Assembly: GCA_030145345.1 (NCBI GenBank) | Contig: JAQYVT010000014.1 | Location: 1-46,532, forward strand | Reading direction: 5' to 3' | From: Desulfobacterales bacterium | GTDB lineage: Bacteria; Desulfobacterota; Desulfobacteria; Desulfobacterales; UBA11574 | DNA length: 46,532 nt | Shown: positions 7,967 through 17,446 of the stretch, piece after piece | Position numbering within the stretch: the stretch's first letter is position 1 | Layout: every line of letters starts with the position of its first letter | Notes under the pieces: generated by a model | Seen by the model: only the letters and a program-made list of their open reading frames with translations | Databases searched by the model: none | What the model was told of the DNA's origin: nothing | Program-made: the position numbers and the translations under genes

Positions 7967-8108
7967 GAGACTTTTGCAAAACGTCCCCTTTTGCCCAATT
8001 CCTGCGTCTGACTCAAATTTTAATCCTCGAAATACATAATGTATGTCTGTGGTTAAAATTTTCGCCTTCCTTGGACTTGAACAAAATTGAACATTTTTCA
8101 AAGGTCTC
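7967..8108. repeat. ~140-bp hairpin repeat, copy 1
   Basis: The element starts three bases after the ACT gene stop. Its ends are inverted complements (GAGACTTTTGCAAAA at 7967-7981, TTTTTCAAAGGTCTC ending at 8108), with an inner AATTTTAA/TTAAAATT pair around CCTCGAAATACAT. It shares the core order GCCCAAT, GCGT, TTTTAA, TCCTCGA, GTATG, GGTTAAAA, CTTGAAC with the element at 11053-11192. The two are diverged copies of one family. It may terminate the upstream transcript. Confidence 0.7.
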
Positions 8109-8246: not shown

Positions 8247-8275
8247 TTGACAAATGTATTTTACTTAGATAATTG
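8247..8275 (+). promoter_or_regulatory. Candidate promoter for the attenuator leader and iorAB
   Basis: TTGACA at 8247-8252 is followed by AT-rich DNA with GATAAT at 8268-8273 (15-base spacer) or TAATTG at 8270-8275 (17-base spacer). Transcription would begin near 8280, just before the Trp leader peptide. The -10 choice is uncertain. Confidence 0.5.
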
Positions 8276-8327
8276 GAGATATTCTTTAAACCGTTTTAAC
8301 ATTAAATCCATAGTCAGAGAAACGATC

Positions 8328-8363
8328 ATGAAATTTGAACTGTGGTGGTGGCACAGATTGTGA
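8328..8363 (+). CDS. Leader peptide with three consecutive Trp codons
   Basis: ATG at 8328 begins an 11-codon ORF, MKFELWWWHRL, ending at TGA 8361-8363. AGAGA seven bases upstream is a weak Shine-Dalgarno sequence. Codons 6-8 are all TGG (8343-8351). Three adjacent Trp codons are very improbable by chance in a short ORF that lies between a promoter and an intrinsic terminator, and match the control codons of known trp leader peptides. It is too short for ordinary gene calling. The peptide itself probably has no function beyond ribosome positioning. Confidence 0.7.
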   Translation: MKFELWWWHRL

Positions 8364-8460
8364 AGTTTGCTCACCACCTTTGAATACCTGATTAATTGAT
8401 TTCAGAGCTGTGAGCGGCTTCTTCAATCGGCGTTGAAGAGGTTCATGGCTCTTTTACTTT

Positions 8461-8495
8461 AAGCCAGCACTTCTTCAAAAAGTACTGGCTTTTTT
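8461..8495 (+). terminator. Intrinsic terminator of the iorA leader
   Basis: AAGCCAG (8461-8467) pairs with CTGGCTT (8485-8491) and ACTT (8469-8472) with AAGT (8480-8483), with one mismatch between, followed by a T run (8490-8495). It lies 60 bases before the iorA start and downstream of the leader peptide, so it is conditional rather than a gene end. Confidence 0.8.
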
Positions 8496-8555
8496 GTTCC
8501 ATGTAATCCTACCTGGGCGGGAATAGGCCCGCCCCGTTATTTATAGAGGACGTAA

Positions 8556-10394
8556 GTGATCAAACGAAAATTAATGCTGGGGAACGAGGCAATTGCGCTG
8601 GGTCTGATGGAAAACGGCTGCACAATGGCAACCTCATATCCAGGGACTCCGGCTTCGGAAATTCTCGCTTCATTTGCTGCGTTGCAAAAAGAAGAATCGA
8701 TGCCGAGGCACGTCCAGTGGGCGGTTAACGAGAAGGTCGCCTTTGAAATTGCCTATGCAGGAAGTATGACCGGACTGCGCGCCGCCGTCAGCATGAAACA
8801 GGTGGGTCTGAATGTGGCATCCGATTCTCTGATGAGCGCGGCATACCTTGGCGTAACCGGTGGCTTCGTGGTGATCAGTGCGGATGATCCGGGACCCCAT
8901 TCTTCACAGACCGAGCAGGACAGCAGGCTCATGGCCATGATGGCAAAGATCCCGGTCCTCGATCCGGATTCTCCCCTGCAGGCAAAAGAGATGGTCGCCA
9001 CCGCCTTCGAACTTTCCGAGACCTTTGAGATTCCCGTGATGCTGCGCCCCACCACAAGGGTCTGTCATGCCCGGCAGGATATTCAACCGGGAAAGATCCA
9101 GTGGCATCCAAGGGAAATCGATTTTCAAAAAGATCCTGCCCGGTGGGCGGCGACACCTAAATTTCGGTTTCATCTGCATCAAGCGCTGGAGAAAAAGCTC
9201 GACGCCATTGCCGGCTATCCGAAAACAGCACCGATCCGGCTCAATGCCGGGGCCAATGCTTCAAAAGCGCTGATCGTATCCGGTGTGGCAGCCGGCCATG
9301 CCAAAGAAATCATGAAAGATCTAAATCTGTGGGACCGGATCCCCATGTATCAGGTGCTGCAGCCGTTCCCGTTGCACAAAGATTTCGTCTCTCACATGAT
9401 CGACACCTATGATGAGATTCTGGTGGTCGAAGAGACGACCGGGATCATTGAGATGCAGCTGGCGGACCGCCATCGCATCAAGGGAAAGCTGACCGGTTCG
9501 GTCCCCCGGGTCGGAGAACTTCTCCCTGAGACCGTCCAAAAGATCATCAGCGAGTTTGCCGGTCTGGAACCAGTGAAAATCGATGCGGGGTCGGATCCCG
9601 GCGTCCGCCCGACACTCTGCGCAGGCTGCCCCCACCGGGCGGCGTTTTTTGCCATTAAAAAGGCGGCGCCAAAGGGGATATATCCCAGCGATATCGGATG
9701 TTACACCCTTGGGCTAAACCTCGGCGCGGTGGACACCGTCCTTTGCATGGGGGCCGCTGTCAGCCAGGCGGCGGGCTTTTACCATGCGTTCAAGAATGAA
9801 AAAAAACCACCGGACATTGTGGCGACCATCGGGGATTCGACGTTTTTTCATGCCGGCGTCCCGGCGCTGATCGATGCGGTGGTTCAGAAGGTGTCTTTTG
9901 TACTGGTAATTCTTGACAACCGAACCACCGCAATGACCGGAAATCAGCCCACACCGGCCGTGGGCCTGGGGGCCGGTGGAGAGCCCCTGAATTCCGTTGA
10001 GATTGAGGCACTGGTCGAAGGATGCGGCGTTAAATTTTGCCGGGTCCAAGACCCTTACAACCTGAACGAATTTATATCCCTGCTTAAAGATGCGGTAAAA
10101 TACAGCAGAGAACACGGACCGGCGGTGGTTATTTCGAGGCATCCCTGTCTGATTGACCGGCTCAGAAAAGAAAAACCGGCCCATCGTCCGATCCAGGTCC
10201 AAGTTTCAGATGAATGCGACGGCTGCGGCTTCTGCGTCAATCATTTTGAATGTCCGGCGCTGGTTTTGGATGAAGAAGCAGAGCAGGTAAATATCGACCC
10301 CATCTTGTGCAATGGGTGCGGCGTATGCATCGGTGTTTGTCCAAAAAATTCTATCAAGGAAAAGGGAAAAGATCGTTCCGAAAGCACGAAATAG
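8556..10394 (+). CDS. iorA: Indolepyruvate:ferredoxin oxidoreductase, alpha subunit
   Basis: A 612-residue protein with the IorA layout: N-terminal pyrimidine-binding domain (LMLGNEAIALGLMENGCTMATSYPGTPASE), a central transketolase-C-like part, a thiamine diphosphate domain (GDSTFFHAGVPALIDAV and a downstream NRTTAMTG motif), and a C-terminal ferredoxin domain with two four-cysteine motifs, CDGCGFC...C and CNGCGVCIGVCP. It oxidatively decarboxylates aryl pyruvates to arylacetyl-CoA with ferredoxin as acceptor; the reaction is reversible and can serve synthesis from arylacetates. The start is GTG 8556 with AGAGGA five bases upstream. It follows the Trp attenuator and is followed 91 bases later by iorB. 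Confidence 0.92.
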   Translation: MIKRKLMLGNEAIALGLMENGCTMATSYPGTPASEILASFAALQKEESMPRHVQWAVNEKVAFEIAYAGSMTGLRAAVSMKQVGLNVASDSLMSAAYLGVTGGFVVISADDPGPHSSQTEQDSRLMAMMAKIPVLDPDSPLQAKEMVATAFELSETFEIPVMLRPTTRVCHARQDIQPGKIQWHPREIDFQKDPARWAATPKFRFHLHQALEKKLDAIAGYPKTAPIRLNAGANASKALIVSGVAAGHAKEIMKDLNLWDRIPMYQVLQPFPLHKDFVSHMIDTYDEILVVEETTGIIEMQLADRHRIKGKLTGSVPRVGELLPETVQKIISEFAGLEPVKIDAGSDPGVRPTLCAGCPHRAAFFAIKKAAPKGIYPSDIGCYTLGLNLGAVDTVLCMGAAVSQAAGFYHAFKNEKKPPDIVATIGDSTFFHAGVPALIDAVVQKVSFVLVILDNRTTAMTGNQPTPAVGLGAGGEPLNSVEIEALVEGCGVKFCRVQDPYNLNEFISLLKDAVKYSREHGPAVVISRHPCLIDRLRKEKPAHRPIQVQVSDECDGCGFCVNHFECPALVLDEEAEQVNIDPILCNGCGVCIGVCPKNSIKEKGKDRSESTK

Positions 10395-10485
10395 GCTTTC
10401 GGAATCATCGGTAAATGGAACCGTCCTTTTAGCGTTTTAAAATAGGTTGGTTTATAGATAGCGTAAATTGAGAATAATCGGAAGT

Positions 10486-11052
10486 ATGAGCGGATCCATG
10501 AAACAGCAGATTGTTATCAGCGGCGTGGGCGGCCAGGGCGTCCTTTTTGTCACGCGTCTTCTGGCAGAGGCGGCCATCATGAAGGGATTTTCAGTCTTTA
10601 CCTCGGAAACCCACGGCATGGCCCAGCGGGGCGGAACGGTTTTATCACATCTTAAGGTGGGGAACTTTTCCAGCCCCTTGATACGGCCCGCCAATGCGGA
10701 CGGTTTGCTGGCATTAAAAGCGGGCGGTTTAAACCAGCACGGTCTTTATCTGAAGCCCCATGCTTGGGCTGCCGTGAACCGTCGTGAAGATGTTGTTCAG
10801 GATTCTGAATCGCCGGTGTTTGCGGTGGATGCGGATGAACTGGCACAGCGTATTCATCAACCGAAGTCCGTTAACTTGATCCTGCTCGGGTTTACCATTG
10901 GCGTTGTTTCAACAGCGGTGGAAAACCGTCTTTTCTGCTCCCTAGAGGATCTAAAAGCGGTTCTTGAAAAAAGTCTGGCAGGTAAAAAGAAGATGCTGGG
11001 CGATGCCATAACGGCGCTGGAAACAGGGTATAATGGATTGAGAACCATTTAG
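10486..11052 (+). CDS. iorB: Indolepyruvate:ferredoxin oxidoreductase, beta subunit
   Basis: The product (188 residues from ATG 10486) is the gamma-domain subunit of 2-oxoacid:ferredoxin oxidoreductases: KQQIVISGVGGQGVLFVTRLLAEAA, then SETHGMAQRGGTVLSHLKVG, both family signatures. It completes the IorAB enzyme with the upstream gene. In-frame alternatives are TTG 10468 and ATG 10498; none has an ideal Shine-Dalgarno, and the second ATG gives the shortest family-like start. The stop is followed one base later by a second copy of the hairpin repeat, which could end the transcript. Confidence 0.9.
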   Translation: MSGSMKQQIVISGVGGQGVLFVTRLLAEAAIMKGFSVFTSETHGMAQRGGTVLSHLKVGNFSSPLIRPANADGLLALKAGGLNQHGLYLKPHAWAAVNRREDVVQDSESPVFAVDADELAQRIHQPKSVNLILLGFTIGVVSTAVENRLFCSLEDLKAVLEKSLAGKKKMLGDAITALETGYNGLRTI

Positions 11053-11305: not shown

Positions 11306-12607
11306 ATGAGTTTTATCCCGAAAAATTTAACCGAAGACCAGTTAAAAAAGATCCAGCTCGATGGCCTTAAATGGACCGTGGGCCACGTGTATAACCATTC
11401 ACCCTTTTACCGTAAAAAACTGGACAACGCAGGCATTAAACCCGAAGATATCCGTTCCCTCGATGATATCCAACACCTGCCCCTTACCGATAAAGATGAA
11501 TTGCAGAAAGAATATCCTTTTCCTTTGCGTTCCGTTCCATTCGAGGACATCGTTCGGATTCATGCCTCTTCAGGGACGACGGGGAAGCGAAAGGTGCTCT
11601 GCTACACCCAAAAAGATGTCGATGTGTGGGCCGATATTTTTGCCCGGTGTTATGAAACAGCGGGTTTAACCCGCAAAGACCGGGTGCAAATCGCCGTGGG
11701 ATACGGCTTGTGGACCGCCGGCGTCGGATTTCAAGCCGGCTGTGAAAGATTCGGGGCCATGGCGGTGCCCCTGGGTCCGGCCAATGCGGATATGCACTGT
11801 GAAATGTTGGTGGATATGGAGACGACGGTTTTCTGTTCCACGGCATCCATGGCATTGCTCATGGCAGAAGAGATTCATAAACGGGACCTCTTGTCAAAAA
11901 TAAAGGTCAAAAAGATTATCCTGGGGGCGGAACGCCACAGCGATGCCATGAGAGCGCGCATAAAAGAACTGATGGGGGTGGACCATATTTTTGATATTTA
12001 TGGATTGACGGAACTTTACGGCCCGGGAACGGGGCTCGATTGCCATCTTCACAATGGAATCCATTACTGGGCCGACCATTTTATTTTTGAAATTCTCGAT
12101 CCGGTTTCATTAAAACCGGTTTCCGACGGCCAGCAGGGCGAGCTCGTCGTGACGACATTGCGCAAAGAGGGCAGCCCGTTGATTCGCTACCGCACCTATG
12201 ACGTTACCCGAATTATGGATGGGGCGTGTCCCTGCGGTTCACCGTTTCCCATGCATGACCGGATCCTCGGCCGCACGGATGATATGTTCATCTACAAGGC
12301 GGTCAATATCTATCCGAGCCAGATCGATCATGTTTTGAGCCACCTTGACGGAATCGCCAGTGAATTCCAGATATATCTCAAACAGCGTGAAAGCGGACGG
12401 GACATGATGCTCATTAAAGTGGAACGGGAAGCAGGATCGAAAAACGCAGATGATGATCCATTGGCCGAACACGTGGCAACAGAGATCCGGCGCAAAATCC
12501 TGGTAAGGTGCCAGGTGGAGATCGTCGATTATGGATCCCTGCCGCGGACAGAGCGAAAAAGCCGGCGGGTCTTTGATCTAAGAAATAACGGTACAACTGC
12601 TGTTTAA
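11306..12607 (+). CDS. paaK: Phenylacetate-CoA ligase (AMP-forming)
   Basis: A 433-residue member of the PaaK family of adenylate-forming enzymes. The phosphate-binding loop HASSGTTGKRK is at about residues 86-96, YGLTELYGPG near 230-240 is the A5 motif, and the C-terminal small domain includes GRTDDMFIYKAVNIYPSQID. It activates phenylacetate or related arylacetates (including indoleacetate) to the CoA thioester with ATP. In anaerobes this enzyme is commonly encoded beside iorAB, recycling arylacetates formed by or consumed by that enzyme. A TAGGAGTT Shine-Dalgarno precedes the ATG. A separate promoter is likely because the repeat at 11053 separates it from iorB. Confidence 0.92.
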   Translation: MSFIPKNLTEDQLKKIQLDGLKWTVGHVYNHSPFYRKKLDNAGIKPEDIRSLDDIQHLPLTDKDELQKEYPFPLRSVPFEDIVRIHASSGTTGKRKVLCYTQKDVDVWADIFARCYETAGLTRKDRVQIAVGYGLWTAGVGFQAGCERFGAMAVPLGPANADMHCEMLVDMETTVFCSTASMALLMAEEIHKRDLLSKIKVKKIILGAERHSDAMRARIKELMGVDHIFDIYGLTELYGPGTGLDCHLHNGIHYWADHFIFEILDPVSLKPVSDGQQGELVVTTLRKEGSPLIRYRTYDVTRIMDGACPCGSPFPMHDRILGRTDDMFIYKAVNIYPSQIDHVLSHLDGIASEFQIYLKQRESGRDMMLIKVEREAGSKNADDDPLAEHVATEIRRKILVRCQVEIVDYGSLPRTERKSRRVFDLRNNGTTAV

Positions 12608-12686
12608 CCCGACTTTTTTTGAACAATCCGGATTAGAACGAAAACTTTTAAATGATCCGCGCACGGATTGGGGAGCATTGTTTGTT

Positions 12687-13460
12687 GTGAGTCGTCCCAA
12701 TTACATTCTTGAAATAAATAGCATTTCTAAAAATTTTGGGGGACTGCAGGCGATCACCCGTTTGTCATTCAATGTCGAGGAAGGCTTGATTTTTTCTATT
12801 ATTGGTCCAAACGGTGCAGGGAAAACCACAGCGATCAATCTGATTACAAGCATGTATCCGCCGACATCCGGCGAAATCTTATTTGAGGGCCAGAAACTGT
12901 TTAGAAAAAAACCGTATCAAGTGGCCCTCATGGGGATCGGTAGAACTTTCCAGAATATACAAGTTTTCCAGAAGATGTCCGTTCGAGAAAATGTCATGGT
13001 GGGATGTCATACCCAGAGCGATTCCGGATTTTTAAGGTGCCTTATGCATACGCCCTCGGTGTGGAAAGAAGAGAAGGTCATTCGGCAAAAAACCGATGCC
13101 GTTTTAAAATTTTTAGACCTCGATTCCAAAGCGGATATGCTGGTCGGCGGTCTTCCCTATGGAGTTCAAAAACGGGTGGAGATTGCTCGGGCACTGGCCA
13201 TTGAACCCAAACTTCTTCTTCTGGACGAACCGGTGGCCGGCCTTAATTTGCAGGAAACCGAAGAGATGGCGGGCACGATTCTCAAAATCAGGGACACGGG
13301 GATAACCGTCATTCTGGTGGAACACGATATGAATCTGATTATGGGTATTTCCAATAGGATTACCGTGTTGGATTATGGGAAAAAAATTGCCGAAGGAAGC
13401 GCCAAAGAGATACAGAACAACCCCAAAGTCATAGACGCCTATCTGGGAAAGGAATTGTAA
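12687..13460 (+). CDS. livG: Branched-chain amino-acid ABC transporter ATP-binding protein LivG
   Basis: About 257 residues. Walker A GPNGAGKTT, Q-loop RTFQNIQVF, a degenerate signature LPYGVQKRVEIARAL and Walker B LLLLDEPVAGL are all present, and the long LivG-type insertion after the Q-loop and the C-terminal NNPKVIDAYLG tail identify the subfamily. GTG 12687 is chosen because GGGAG lies 11 bases upstream; TTG 12678 is in frame but only two bases from that GGGAG. It is the first gene of livG-livF-livJ-livH-livM, an importer of branched-chain or other hydrophobic amino acids. Next to ior/paaK genes it may import aromatic amino acids or arylacids; that is inference. Confidence 0.9.
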   Translation: MSRPNYILEINSISKNFGGLQAITRLSFNVEEGLIFSIIGPNGAGKTTAINLITSMYPPTSGEILFEGQKLFRKKPYQVALMGIGRTFQNIQVFQKMSVRENVMVGCHTQSDSGFLRCLMHTPSVWKEEKVIRQKTDAVLKFLDLDSKADMLVGGLPYGVQKRVEIARALAIEPKLLLLDEPVAGLNLQETEEMAGTILKIRDTGITVILVEHDMNLIMGISNRITVLDYGKKIAEGSAKEIQNNPKVIDAYLGKEL

Positions 13461-13466
13461 GGAACC

Positions 13467-14186
13467 GTGCTGGTAATCGATGGCATAAGTGCCTACTATG
13501 GCGGTGTTCGAGCCCTCGATAAGATTTCTCTTGTACTGGAGGAAGGAGAAATTTTGGCGCTAATCGGTGGAAACGGCGCCGGTAAGACGACAATTTTAAA
13601 CCTTATCTCCGGTATTATCAAGCCTACCCATGGAACGATAATGCTTAGGGGAGAAGATATCGGATCTTTTTCCCCTGAGAGGATCGTTGAGCTGGGTATT
13701 ATCCAAGTTCCCGAAGGCAGACATCTTTTCGGACCGTTAACGGTCCAGGAGAATCTTGAGATCGGGGCGTATCGGCGGCGAGGGCGGCAAAACAAAAAAA
13801 AGATATCAGACGATTTTGAGCATATATTACAGCTTTTTCCGGTTCTCGGAAAACGGCTTAAACAACGAGCGGAGACACTCAGCGGTGGAGAACAGCAGAT
13901 GTTGGCCATCGGCAGGGGATTGATGGGAAGACCGCTTCTTTTGCTTCTAGATGAACCATCCTTAGGTCTTGCGCCGCTGGTGATGCAAGAAATTATCTCT
14001 ATTATTGGAAGACTTAGACAGGAGGGGACCACGATTCTTTTGGTCGAGCAGAATGCAAGAGCGGCGCTCAAGATCGCTGATCGCGCGTATGTCTTGGAAG
14101 CCGGAAAAATGCGCCTTCAGGGAAGCGCAGCGGATCTTCTTGAGAATGTGGAATTAAAAAAAGCATATCTGGGAAACGGGTCGTAA
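13467..14186 (+). CDS. livF: Branched-chain amino-acid ABC transporter ATP-binding protein LivF
   Basis: A 239-residue ABC ATPase: Walker A GGNGAGKTT, IQVPEGRHLFGPLTVQENL (the LivF-specific Q-loop region), signature LSGGEQQMLAIGRGLM, Walker B LLLLDEPSLGL and a switch His replaced by the LivF-typical VEQNA. It pairs with LivG to energise transport through LivH/LivM. It starts at GTG 13467, six bases after the livG stop, with AAGGA overlapping that stop region, so the two are co-translated. The length is normal for the family. Confidence 0.93.
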   Translation: MLVIDGISAYYGGVRALDKISLVLEEGEILALIGGNGAGKTTILNLISGIIKPTHGTIMLRGEDIGSFSPERIVELGIIQVPEGRHLFGPLTVQENLEIGAYRRRGRQNKKKISDDFEHILQLFPVLGKRLKQRAETLSGGEQQMLAIGRGLMGRPLLLLLDEPSLGLAPLVMQEIISIIGRLRQEGTTILLVEQNARAALKIADRAYVLEAGKMRLQGSAADLLENVELKKAYLGNGS

Positions 14187-14260
14187 AAAGGAAGGGGGGT
14201 GAAAAGAAATATCTATCAATGCCGGGAACGTATATACGAAAACGAATTGGGAGGAAAAAA

Positions 14261-15436
14261 ATGAACAGAAGATTATTGACACTCGTTGTAATGGTTATCA
14301 CCGTCAGTTTTATGGTAGGATCGTCACTCTGCTATAGTGCCGAGCCTATTAAAATTGCAGGAATTTTTGCGCTGACCGGCCGTGCTGCTCATATTGGAAC
14401 AGCGCAGAAGGATGCCGTATTGCTTGCCATCGATGAGGCAAATCAACAGGGAGGCATCAACGGCCGCATGCTGGAAATGGTGATGGAAGACACGGAAAGC
14501 AACCCCACCAAGGCGGTTATGGCCTTGAAAAAAATTCTGGAATCCCAAGACGTGGTGGCGATTATCGGACCGACACTGACCGGAACGGCCATGGCCATGA
14601 GGGGTTTCATTGAAAAGGAAAAGATTCCCGCCTTCATGCATTCAGGGGGGGACGTTATTTTAAAGGCGCCGCTCGACAAAAAAGATCCAAACTCAATGCC
14701 GAAATGGACGTTTAAATCACCGTATAAAGCGGCAGATGCAATGGGCAAGATCTGCCAGTATATGAACAAGCACGGCATCAAAAAAATAGGCTTCGTCTAC
14801 TCCAACGAAGGGTTCGGAAAAGACGGGCTCAGAAACGTAAAGGTCCAGGCACCGAAGTACGGGGTAGAGATTGTTGCCCAAGAGGCCTTTCAGCCCAAAG
14901 ACATCGATATGACCGCACAATTGACCCGTATCAACGCCAAGGGCGTCGATGCGATCATTGCCTGGACAGTGGGTCCAGCCATGGGAATCATCGCCAAAAA
15001 TATCAAACAGTTGGGTATCAAGGCGCCCCTGTTTGAATGCCACGGCGCCGGAGATCCTATCTTTTGGAAGGTTGCCGGTGAGTCCGGTGAGGGGGTGATG
15101 ATGCCTTCTACCAAAATTGTTGTGGGTGATCAACTTCCCGACAGCGACATCCAGAAAAAAAAGGTTTTAGACTATGTGAAGGCGTATCAGACAAAATTCA
15201 ATCGAGAGCCCGGCACCATGGTTGCCTATGGCGCGGATGCGGCGTTCATTATTATAGATGCGATTAAAAAGGTCGGGCCCGACCGGGCGAAAATCCGGGA
15301 TGCCATTGAGAATACAACGGGTTATGTGGGTATCAGCGGCATCTACAATATCAGCCCGCAGGATCATAACGGGCTGTCCATGGACGACATCGTCATGATC
15401 AAAGCCACCAAAGGGGGCTGGAAACTGCTCGATTAG
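14261..15436 (+). CDS. livJ: Periplasmic substrate-binding protein of the Liv transporter
   Basis: The correct start is ATG 14261, preceded by GGGAGGAAAAAA; the open frame upstream of it is not coding. The 391-residue product has a signal peptide (MNRRLLTLVVMVITVSFMVGS, cleavage about residue 25) followed by the type I periplasmic binding fold: IKIAGIFALTGRAAHIGTAQKDAVLLAIDEAN, and VVAIIGPTLTGTAMAMRGFIE around the ligand cleft. It captures the substrate for LivHMGF. The binding-protein family (LivJ/LivK, peripla_BP_6) covers branched-chain, aromatic and aliphatic amides, so the ligand is not determined here. A hairpin follows its stop. Confidence 0.88.
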   Translation: MNRRLLTLVVMVITVSFMVGSSLCYSAEPIKIAGIFALTGRAAHIGTAQKDAVLLAIDEANQQGGINGRMLEMVMEDTESNPTKAVMALKKILESQDVVAIIGPTLTGTAMAMRGFIEKEKIPAFMHSGGDVILKAPLDKKDPNSMPKWTFKSPYKAADAMGKICQYMNKHGIKKIGFVYSNEGFGKDGLRNVKVQAPKYGVEIVAQEAFQPKDIDMTAQLTRINAKGVDAIIAWTVGPAMGIIAKNIKQLGIKAPLFECHGAGDPIFWKVAGESGEGVMMPSTKIVVGDQLPDSDIQKKKVLDYVKAYQTKFNREPGTMVAYGADAAFIIIDAIKKVGPDRAKIRDAIENTTGYVGISGIYNISPQDHNGLSMDDIVMIKATKGGWKLLD

Positions 15437-15460
15437 AAGATTAACCCAATCATGCCCACT

Positions 15461-15497
15461 CTTCCCTCCCTTAGCCGTTAAGATGAAGGGAGGGGAG
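15461..15497 (+). terminator. Inter-gene hairpin between livJ and livH
   Basis: CTTCCCTCCCTT (15461-15472) pairs with AAGGGAGGGGAG (15486-15497) with one G-U pair. No T run follows, so it is not a full terminator. Such hairpins after binding-protein genes typically stabilise the upstream mRNA and reduce readthrough to the permease genes. Confidence 0.6.
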
Positions 15498-15513
15498 GGG
15501 AAAAAATAACCTT

Positions 15514-16401
15514 ATGGATTTTTCCCAACAAATCGCCCAATATATCATCACCGGCTTAACCATTGGCGCTATTTACGCCATTGTGGCCATGGGATTTAAT
15601 ATCATCCATAATGCCACCGGAATTGTCAATTTTGCCCAGTGTGAATTCATATCCCTTGGCGGGATGTTTATGTACTCTTTGGCGGTTCTTTTCAAAGTCA
15701 ACTTGATCATCGCCTTTTTTATATCCATGGCCGGTGTTGCGCTTATTGGCGCCCTAATAGAGATGGGACCGATACGGCATGCCCGTTCAAAGGAGATCAT
15801 CATTCTTATTTTTCTGACCATCGGGTTGTCGGAAATTCTCCGGGGAGCGGCCCAGGAGGTGTGGGGGACTGACAATGTGGGCGTCCCCGCCTTTTCAGGC
15901 GAAGCTCCGATTCATCTTCCGGGGGGTGCTGCCATAGTACCCCAGCACCTCTGGATATTTGCCATTACCGTGATGGTCATGCTGATGCTCCGTTATTTTT
16001 TTAAAAAAACATTAATGGGCAAGGCCATGCGGGCAACAGCGGTGAATCGAAGGGCGGCGGCGTTAGCGGGGATTTCCGTTAATCGTATGGTCCTATTCTC
16101 CTTTGCATTCAGCGGTGCGTTGGGGGCGGTGGCCGGAATGATCATCGCACCGATTTCTTCGACGTCCTATGATACGGGCATCATGCTGGGACTGAAGGGA
16201 TTTGCTGCAGCGATTCTGGGTGGGTACGGTAATTTTGCGGGTGCAATTTTAGGCGGAATAATCCTGGGTATTCTGGAATCACTCGGCGCTGGCCTGATCT
16301 CTTCTCAATATAAAGACGCCATCGCATTTTTCGTTCTCCTTTTGGTTCTCTTTCTGAAACCCACAGGGATTATGGGGTATGGAGAATCGGAAAGGGTTTA
16401 G
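15514..16401 (+). CDS. livH: Branched-chain amino-acid ABC transporter permease LivH
   Basis: A 295-residue membrane protein of the LivH family with about eight helices. It contains GLTIGAIYAIVAMGFNIIHNATGIVNFAQCEFISLGG, the conserved first-helix region, and a later AILGGYGNFAGAILGGIILGILE, the EAA-like coupling segment that contacts the ATPases. It forms the membrane pore with LivM. GGAGGGG lies upstream of the ATG, though at longer than usual spacing. Its 3' end overlaps the livM start by 23 bases. Confidence 0.92.
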   Translation: MDFSQQIAQYIITGLTIGAIYAIVAMGFNIIHNATGIVNFAQCEFISLGGMFMYSLAVLFKVNLIIAFFISMAGVALIGALIEMGPIRHARSKEIIILIFLTIGLSEILRGAAQEVWGTDNVGVPAFSGEAPIHLPGGAAIVPQHLWIFAITVMVMLMLRYFFKKTLMGKAMRATAVNRRAAALAGISVNRMVLFSFAFSGALGAVAGMIIAPISSTSYDTGIMLGLKGFAAAILGGYGNFAGAILGGIILGILESLGAGLISSQYKDAIAFFVLLLVLFLKPTGIMGYGESERV

Positions 16402-17446
16402 CCTGAATATATCAAAGGGGCATAATTTTATCCCAATTGAGCGAAAACGTACCATTGAGAGTTGCCTGTTATTGGTTAATAGAATGTTGTTAAAGCAAAA
16501 AGATAACCTTTGTTTCGGGATACTGGCCCTTGTCATTGTTGCCATTCCCATGTTTGTCGAGAGCAAGTACTATTTTATTGTTCTGAACGTGATCGGTCTC
16601 AACACCATCGTGGTTGTGGGGTTGAACCTGTTGATCGGTTTTGCCGGACAAATTTCATTGGGCCATGCTGCGTTTTACGGTCTCGGATCTTATTTTTCAG
16701 GGATACTTACCGTCAACTACGGATTCCCTATGTGGCCGGCGATGCTTGTGGGAATGCTGGCAACGGGAGCTGTGGCATATTTGATCGGATACCCGTCTTT
16801 AAAGCTCCGGGGGCACTATCTGGTAATGGCGACCTTGGGATTCGGTATAATTATCAATATCCTCATGGGCGAGCTGGAGCAATTCACCGGCGGGCATGAC
16901 GGTTTGATGGGGATACCGCCACTGACCATCGGCGGTCTGGCCTTTGATAATGACCTTAAAAATTTTTACCTGATTTGGAGTTTTGTTTTTTTCTTCATGC
17001 TGGCGGCCAGAAATTTACTGAACTCCAGGGTCGGCAGAGCATTGCGCGCTATTCACGGCAGTGAAGTGGCTGCAAATTCCTTGGGCATTAATACGGCCGA
17101 TTATAAAGTTAAGGTTTTTGTCTTGAGCGCCATGTTCGCATCCGTATCCGGCAGTCTTTATGCCCATTACATTACGTTTATCAGTCCCAGTTCCTACGAT
17201 TTTTATTATTCCATCCAGGTCGTGACCATGGTTATCGTCGGCGGTATGGGAAGTCTTTGGGGTTCTCTGTTCGGCGCCGGTATTCTCACCTTTATCTCCG
17301 AAGCACTCCATATCGCCGAACAATATCACATCATTGCATACGGCATTTTTCTATGTCTGGTCCTTGTCTTTTTGCCTGAAGGGATCGTGGTGGGCATTTA
17401 TAATTTCTTCCTAAAGATAAAGACGCGGAAGGCGATAATAAAATGA
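16379..17446 (+). CDS. livM: Branched-chain amino-acid ABC transporter permease LivM
   Basis: A 355-residue permease with the LivM signature VGLNLLIGFAGQISLGHAAFYGLGSYFSGIL and the coupling region VVTMVIVGGMGSLWGSLFGAGIL. ATG 16379 overlaps livH; it adds a polar 45-residue N-terminus before the first helix (LCFGILALVIVAIPMFV), and ATG 16484 is an alternative start nearer the family norm. It is the last gene of the liv operon, with a strong terminator 140 bases beyond the stop. Confidence 0.9.
   Translation: MENRKGFSLNISKGHNFIPIERKRTIESCLLLVNRMLLKQKDNLCFGILALVIVAIPMFVESKYYFIVLNVIGLNTIVVVGLNLLIGFAGQISLGHAAFYGLGSYFSGILTVNYGFPMWPAMLVGMLATGAVAYLIGYPSLKLRGHYLVMATLGFGIIINILMGELEQFTGGHDGLMGIPPLTIGGLAFDNDLKNFYLIWSFVFFFMLAARNLLNSRVGRALRAIHGSEVAANSLGINTADYKVKVFVLSAMFASVSGSLYAHYITFISPSSYDFYYSIQVVTMVIVGGMGSLWGSLFGAGILTFISEALHIAEQYHIIAYGIFLCLVLVFLPEGIVVGIYNFFLKIKTRKAIIK

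Follow-up and report, generated by a model that had tools for sequence, protein, structure and literature searches.

The window analysed here is a stretch of 46,532 nucleotides from a Desulfobacterales bacterium (assembly GCA_030145345.1, contig JAQYVT010000014.1, positions 1-46,532, forward strand). Directly upstream of the gene cluster iorA-iorB-paaK-livGFKHM, the region 8247-8500 holds a promoter, a leader ORF rich in Trp codons and three successive hairpins including an intrinsic terminator (Table 1), and iorA itself starts with a GTG codon. An alternative weak -10 element of the leader promoter is GATAAT at 8268-8273. The generic sigma-70 scan did not score the leader promoter and called no promoter, and the generic terminator scan did not call terminator T, which was missed because of a mismatch inside its stem. 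The promoter is nevertheless conserved, as 15 of the 19 relatives checked keep an arrangement TTGACAAA-N17/18-(TA-rich) at a distance of 58-125 nt before the leader start, and the generic scan found no promoter-like site downstream of the terminator in the window. Two further elements flank the leader region, namely an imperfect inverted repeat, which is conserved in genome G003 and was not found at the other fetched loci, and a short perfect hairpin of G and C residues.

Table 1. Features of the ior locus, with positions in the window.
Feature	Position	Strand	Details
Imperfect inverted repeat	8015-8061		23-nt arms; between ACT gene and promoter
Promoter	8247-8275	+	-35 TTGACA 8247-8252; weak -10 TAATTG 8270-8275; 17-nt spacing
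Leader ORF MKFELWWWHRL	8328-8363	+	11 codons; three TGG codons 8343-8351; stop codon UGA 8361-8363
Hairpin 1:2	8333-8385	+	From folding; segment 1 (8344-8351) inside Trp codons, pairs with 8371-8378
Segment 2	8361-8385	+	Starts at leader stop codon; pairs with segment 3 (8400-8422) as first antiterminator
Hairpin X (segments 3:4)	8404-8452	+	From folding and alignment; conserved AGAGCYGUGAG..GGCUUC / GAAG..GGCUCAUGGCUCU
Alternative helix 4:5	8432-8479	+	8432-8451 with 8461-8479; second antiterminator
Intrinsic terminator T (segments 5:6)	8461-8495	+	Stem 8461-8491; U-tract 8490-8495
G+C hairpin	8515-8534		Perfect, 7 bp; between terminator and iorA ribosome-binding site
iorA	8556-10394	+	2-oxoacid:ferredoxin oxidoreductase alpha, divergent IorA; TIGR03336, 649.0 bits (cut-off 650.9)
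iorB	10468-11052	+	NF004916, indolepyruvate oxidoreductase beta; 5e-61, 206 bits (cut-off 227)
paaK	11306-12607	+	PaaK-like aryl-CoA ligase PaaK1; TIGR02155, 393 bits (cut-off 646)
livG-livF-livK-livH-livM	12678-17446	+	Liv-type ABC transporter; ORFs, NCBIfam for livG, livK and livH
LivK solute-binding protein	14219-15436		Within liv genes

The enzymes encoded behind the leader are divergent members of their families. IorA falls just under the cut-off of the model for canonical indolepyruvate oxidoreductase alpha subunits, which the other IorA of the same genome passes with 783 bits, and PaaK1 scores far lower than its paralog PaaK2, which comes nearer to the PaaK cut-off with 620 bits. The nearest solved structures of PaaK1 are PaaK proteins. 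Because the scores of IorA1 and PaaK1 stay below the curated cut-offs for the named functions, their substrates can only be proposed, and the scores of the two PaaK proteins and of the IorA paralogs would fit dedicated enzymes acting on different aryl acids.

For the comparison of upstream regions, iorA orthologs were collected from 60 related genomes and a named genome collection (Desulfobacterales and neighbours). A W-rich leader recurs about 170-300 nt before iorA in these relatives, with peptides such as MKFKLWCWWWHRL, MEIRLWWWWRKL, MTIKFWWWWPNV, MKPTCWWWWWQRP, MSFNLWCWWWQKF and MVTFWWWWRIG, among others. Short ORFs with at least three Trp residues within five codons were present within 350 nt of iorA at 20 of 72 loci, compared to 0.3 expected from dinucleotide shuffles, which excludes chance, and with at least two Trp residues at 33 of them. 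About half of the fetched iorA1 loci (39/72) showed no clear W leader within 350 nt, and none was seen at the three iorA-paralog loci examined or at the iorA paralog on C153. In two relatives (L026 and L054), the leader is lost and the terminator kept, the deletion placing the TTGACA promoter against the terminator hairpin, which would then lie at the 5' end of the mRNA. The more distant iorA loci L080, L086 and L099 carry W leaders combined with a different hairpin architecture, which suggests that W leaders have been recruited repeatedly in front of iorA. Desulfonema magnum (L172) carries iorA with a partial form of the motif. An initial annotation of the locus had listed the promoter, the 11-codon ORF with its three TGG codons, the hairpins, the terminator and iorA, all of which are present in the sequence at the places given, and had proposed to look for conserved Trp codons and alternative hairpins before the ior genes of relatives. 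Both are conserved; neither of the two observations named there as counterevidence, a leader ORF missing from relatives or transcription starting past the terminator, was made, as W leaders precede iorA, paaK or trpB2 in relatives and the conserved promoter precedes the leader, with nothing promoter-like behind the terminator.

Alignments of the upstream regions (A1 and A2) show that the leader, the middle hairpin X and terminator T are conserved across the Desulfobacterales. The leader region 8279-8500 folds with a z-score of -3.1 relative to shuffled sequences, and the part comprising X and the terminator (8400-8500) with -4.8; the terminator by itself reaches -3.3 and hairpin 1:2 just -1.5, the GG(U)GG:CCACC pairs of the latter being nearly invariant across the aligned loci. 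Hairpins X and T jointly are paired in 96.1% of the alignment cells, with 19 double-change cells compared to 6.3 in shuffles, and the helices of the alternative conformation also covary: helix 2:3 is paired in 89.4% of the cells (10 double-change cells versus 4.6 in shuffles) and helix 4:5 in 85% (13 versus 5.5). Shifting the partner columns abolishes the pairing signals of 2:3 and 4:5. Accordingly strong duplexes are predicted from the native partners, with mean values of -22.7 kcal/mol for 2:3 and -21.9 kcal/mol for 4:5, as opposed to -13.3 and -12.2 kcal/mol with shuffled partners; if segment 5 is swapped between loci, 4:5 falls to -17.9 kcal/mol, and the native strength was matched in none of 10000 permutations. 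In the clade L049-L051, both sides of helix 4:5 have been rewritten. As judged from the alignments, both conformations, 1:2/3:4/5:6 and 2:3/4:5, are supported by covariation. The locus therefore combines a leader ORF in which codons for the regulatory amino acid follow one another, an intrinsic terminator ahead of iorA as first structural gene and, by pairing and covariation, mutually exclusive terminator and antiterminator helices, all of which are marks of ribosome-mediated amino-acid attenuators. The trp-type layout of the initial annotation stands as far as leader, hairpins and terminator are concerned, but the RNA has six segments instead of four, with covarying helices 4:5 and 5:6. At loci L067 and L095, hairpin X runs straight into at least seven U residues and no further terminator was seen behind it; X may therefore itself terminate transcription there.

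The geometry of these helices suggests how the switch would operate. With plentiful Trp, the ribosome would reach the UGA codon at 8361 and then either mask segment 2 or depart and let hairpin 1:2 form. A ribosome at the stop codon would mask the 5' part of segment 2, leaving segment 3 to pair with segment 4 as hairpin X, which would keep segment 4 from segment 5, allow the terminator 5:6 to form and end transcription. If Trp is scarce, the ribosome would stall at the three UGG codons and mask segment 1, whereupon segment 2 would pair with 3, segment 4 would be freed for 5, no terminator would form and iorA-iorB-paaK-livGFKHM would be transcribed. The probability of hairpin X, P(X), was estimated by equilibrium folding for the stage at which segment 5 has been made, with the nucleotides under an assumed ribosome footprint left out of the fold. 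For the window it amounts to 0.95 with the ribosome at the stop codon and 0.50 with a stalled ribosome, indicating a partial switch, and the mean values of 16 loci are 0.93 and 0.43, respectively; in several of the 16, such as L012, L018 and L053, P(X) barely shifts on stalling. As equilibrium folding leaves out kinetics, these values back the direction of the effect rather than its size. Geometry and folding together point to a switch that is ON when Trp is scarce, and ribosome stalling would be expected to have this effect in vivo.

A covariance model built from X plus T (R1) was searched against 291 genomes of the order and yielded 36 strong matches (E < 1e-8, the best down to 1e-19). The genes behind these copies are iorA (21 cases), paaK (nine), trpB2 (five) and a TRAP transporter (one), and none of the 36 precedes an unrelated gene. 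In the nine paaK-first operons, which have leaders such as MKLIFWWWWRS, genes for a Liv or TRAP transporter come after paaK, and an ior gene is not linked. The trpB2 genes belong to NCBIfam trpB_rel, and one of the five copies, in genome G093, heads a trpB2-iorA-iorB-paaK operon that has a TRAP dctM gene at some distance behind it. The transporter partner of these operons alternates between the Liv ABC and TRAP types, and in the single TRAP-only case (G035, locus L159) the attenuator lies directly before the transporter. In one scan over a spread of 395 genomes of the phylum, R1-type matches were confined to the order of the window. Comparison of the sequences thus establishes which parts make up the attenuator, that they are conserved and can pair in both ways, and which genes are its targets, and lends strong support to the regulatory part of a Trp-salvage reading.

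Leaders of related kind are found before other aromatic amino acid genes of these bacteria, and the identity of their codons differs. The own trpE gene has a leader MNNNSIQKTLKKVDIKYWWWQTQINGSAPGT with WWW, most trpE genes of relatives are likewise preceded by a W leader, and so is trpB2; the WWW leader about 390 nt upstream of the own trpE (G000, contig C39; L194) is accompanied by tandem terminators in an architecture unlike that of the ior attenuator. The second PaaK-like gene of the genome (contig C131) is preceded by the Phe-rich leader MRFRFFYFGFFSFLGGFFFRKSIHGLAG with tandem hairpins acting as presumed terminators (G000:C131:1383-1474, minus strand; L164 and L248, orthologs L249-L277), and the orthologous operon of G003 reads paaK2-ACT-livKHMGF (L240). 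F-rich leaders occur before paaK2 in about two thirds of the relatives, the mean paaK2 leader containing 9.5 F and 0 W, whereas the leaders of iorA, paaK1, trpB2 and trpE contain 3.3-3.7 W and about one F or fewer. Leaders of mixed Y/F/W composition with tandem terminators were observed before aro operons (L162, L163, L169 and L173), which code for enzymes of the DAHP synthase and aminodideoxyheptulosonate-synthase type. With W leaders on ior and trp genes and an F leader on paaK2-liv, codon identity tracks the presumed product. The earlier proposal that the enzyme is made when Trp is scarce and has a biosynthetic or salvage role gains from these data, both from the same attenuator being placed before trpB2, paaK-transporter operons and a TRAP transporter, and from the W leaders on real trp operons and the Phe leader on the paralogous paaK2-liv genes.

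Trp auxotrophy was considered as a general explanation and rejected for the window, whose own genome has a full set of trpEGDCF and trpBA, so that salvage would only be an addition there; it holds only for some relatives. G093 (91% complete), which carries the attenuator-trpB2-iorA-iorB-paaK operon, is without trpE, trpD and trpC, G026 without trpE, D, C and A, G030 (79% complete) without trpE, trpD, C and A, G051 without trpD, C and A, and G050 without trpE, C and A, these absences from incomplete assemblies being leads. The gene for TrpB2 is kept in G026, G030, G050 and G051, and iorA also in the latter three. Genomes G013, G016 and G020, which are without trpE, were not counted, as they contain parts of trpA/trpB, or genes truncated on short contigs. 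In G050 (L244:6200-7279) and in G190 (L170), a WWW leader accompanies an isolated trpD-like gene, and the protein encoded at L170 shows an altered version of the usual GTGG motif.

The best reading of these data is a salvage regulon induced by Trp starvation. The operon would import indole-3-acetate or a close aryl acid, PaaK1 would activate the imported indoleacetate to indoleacetyl-CoA, IorAB working in reverse with reduced ferredoxin would reductively carboxylate it to indolepyruvate, and an aminotransferase would turn the latter into Trp, while TrpB2 would provide an indole branch. Direction and substrates of IorAB and PaaK1 are inferred: since the leader signals Trp only, the expected acid is indoleacetate rather than phenylacetate, and of the biosynthetic route via indoleacetyl-CoA or phenylacetyl-CoA that had been suggested initially, the indole side is favoured for this operon. 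Salvage is preferred because all targets, together with the Phe system, make sense only as suppliers of whichever amino acid is read by the leader. The nine attenuated operons pairing paaK with a transporter and no linked ior speak against it, as do the iorA loci without a clear W leader or with the leader lost, the full trp set of the own genome, the small shift of P(X) at several loci and the scores of PaaK1 and IorA1 below the curated cut-offs. Altogether, we consider it probable that a ribosome-mediated transcription attenuator turns on an arylacetate-to-Trp salvage operon in response to a shortage of charged tRNA-Trp.

The main rival is a Trp-responsive attenuator controlling an operon for the uptake of Trp or other aromatic amino acids by the Liv or TRAP systems, with IorAB and PaaK doing something else. 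Amino acids are often carried by Liv-type transporters, iorAB is frequently partnered by Liv or TRAP genes even where no paaK is seen, and one attenuator stands before a TRAP transporter alone; yet the type of transporter is swapped, TRAP systems mostly carry organic acids, nine attenuated operons start with paaK, trpB2 under the same switch codes for an enzyme and not a carrier, and a cell starved of Trp would defeat its own purpose by producing enzymes that degrade it. We therefore regard uptake of Trp itself as unlikely. Even less probable is a catabolic role, in which IorAB and PaaK would convert Trp to indoleacetate with ATP or reduced ferredoxin and the leader would be tnaC-like or reversed. 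Indolepyruvate oxidoreductase is known to be catabolic or fermentative in peptide-fermenting archaea (PMC5817080) and the known regulation of ior in Desulfovibrio involves a sigma-54 activator (PMC4641369), but the leader has the geometry of a starvation-ON attenuator and several consecutive Trp codons in place of a single conserved one as in tnaC, trpB2 shares the switch, and the same codon rule applies to trp and aro operons. Least credible of all is a constitutive leader with terminators only, its Trp codons a remnant without regulatory effect, for although some relatives have lost the leader and kept the terminator, the mutually exclusive helices show compensatory changes and W leaders recur even with another RNA architecture before iorA.

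Returning to the salvage reading, we favour, with less assurance than for the single operon, a network of codon-addressed attenuation in the Desulfobacterales, in which W leaders would serve trp, trpB2 and the indoleacetate-to-Trp genes (transporter, PaaK1 and IorAB1), F leaders a phenylacetate-to-Phe route (PaaK2 and Liv) and mixed leaders the aro operons. If so, the leader codons would disclose which substrate each of the paralogous aryl-CoA ligases uses and serve as a general annotation aid for salvage operons, a direction and a substrate would be assigned to divergent IOR and PaaK proteins for which sequence alone does not suffice, and bacterial genes for reductive arylacetate carboxylation would be identified. 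These would also be candidate genes for the conversion of arylacetates to amino acids in anaerobic bacteria, which was reportedly observed with rumen bacteria in the 1960s. The pairing of attenuator and operon in many relatives points to a little-known route of Trp salvage, controlled in sulfate reducers by an RNA outside Rfam that acts as a six-segment relay on genes usually labelled as fermentative.

The amino-acid attenuators described so far come mainly from gamma-proteobacteria and control biosynthetic operons (PMC3766115), and our literature search found no earlier report of attenuation of ior or aryl-acid genes. Rfam has no family for the ior RNA and matched nothing relevant; neither Trp_leader (RF00513) nor the T-box model matched at the gathering threshold or among matches up to an E value of 5. 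In Actinobacteria, candidate trp attenuators with UGG leaders have been predicted comparatively for trp operons, trpB2A of C. diphtheriae and trpS (PMC1262725), and share a trpB2-containing target with the ior RNA, but belong to another phylum and another RNA, without ior or paaK targets. The biosynthetic direction of the enzyme has a precedent in Methanococcus maripaludis, where IOR is described as serving a route from aryl acids to aromatic amino acids (cited in PMC4162585); that organism is an archaeon, no attenuator is mentioned in the part of the source consulted, and the ior genes treated here are bacterial and divergent. The trp attenuator (trpL; RF00513) resembles the ior RNA in its consecutive UGG codons, the hairpin over them, the intrinsic terminator and the starvation-ON logic, but has four segments with 3:4 as terminator, an arrangement which the ior RNA does not show, and acts on trp biosynthesis genes instead of ior, paaK, trpB2 and transporter genes, the own trp operon having a separate attenuator. 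The closest counterpart in mode of action, with no homology claimed, is the ribosome-mediated his attenuator of E. coli and Salmonella, which likewise has six segments, with alternative 2:3 and 4:5 pairings and an extra hairpin between leader hairpin and terminator, proposed in a model study to keep basal read-through low (PMC1183508). The ior leader differs from it in having Trp instead of His codons, in a segment 2 that begins at the stop codon, and in a middle hairpin that has U-runs behind it in many relatives and appears as the sole terminator in L067 and L095.
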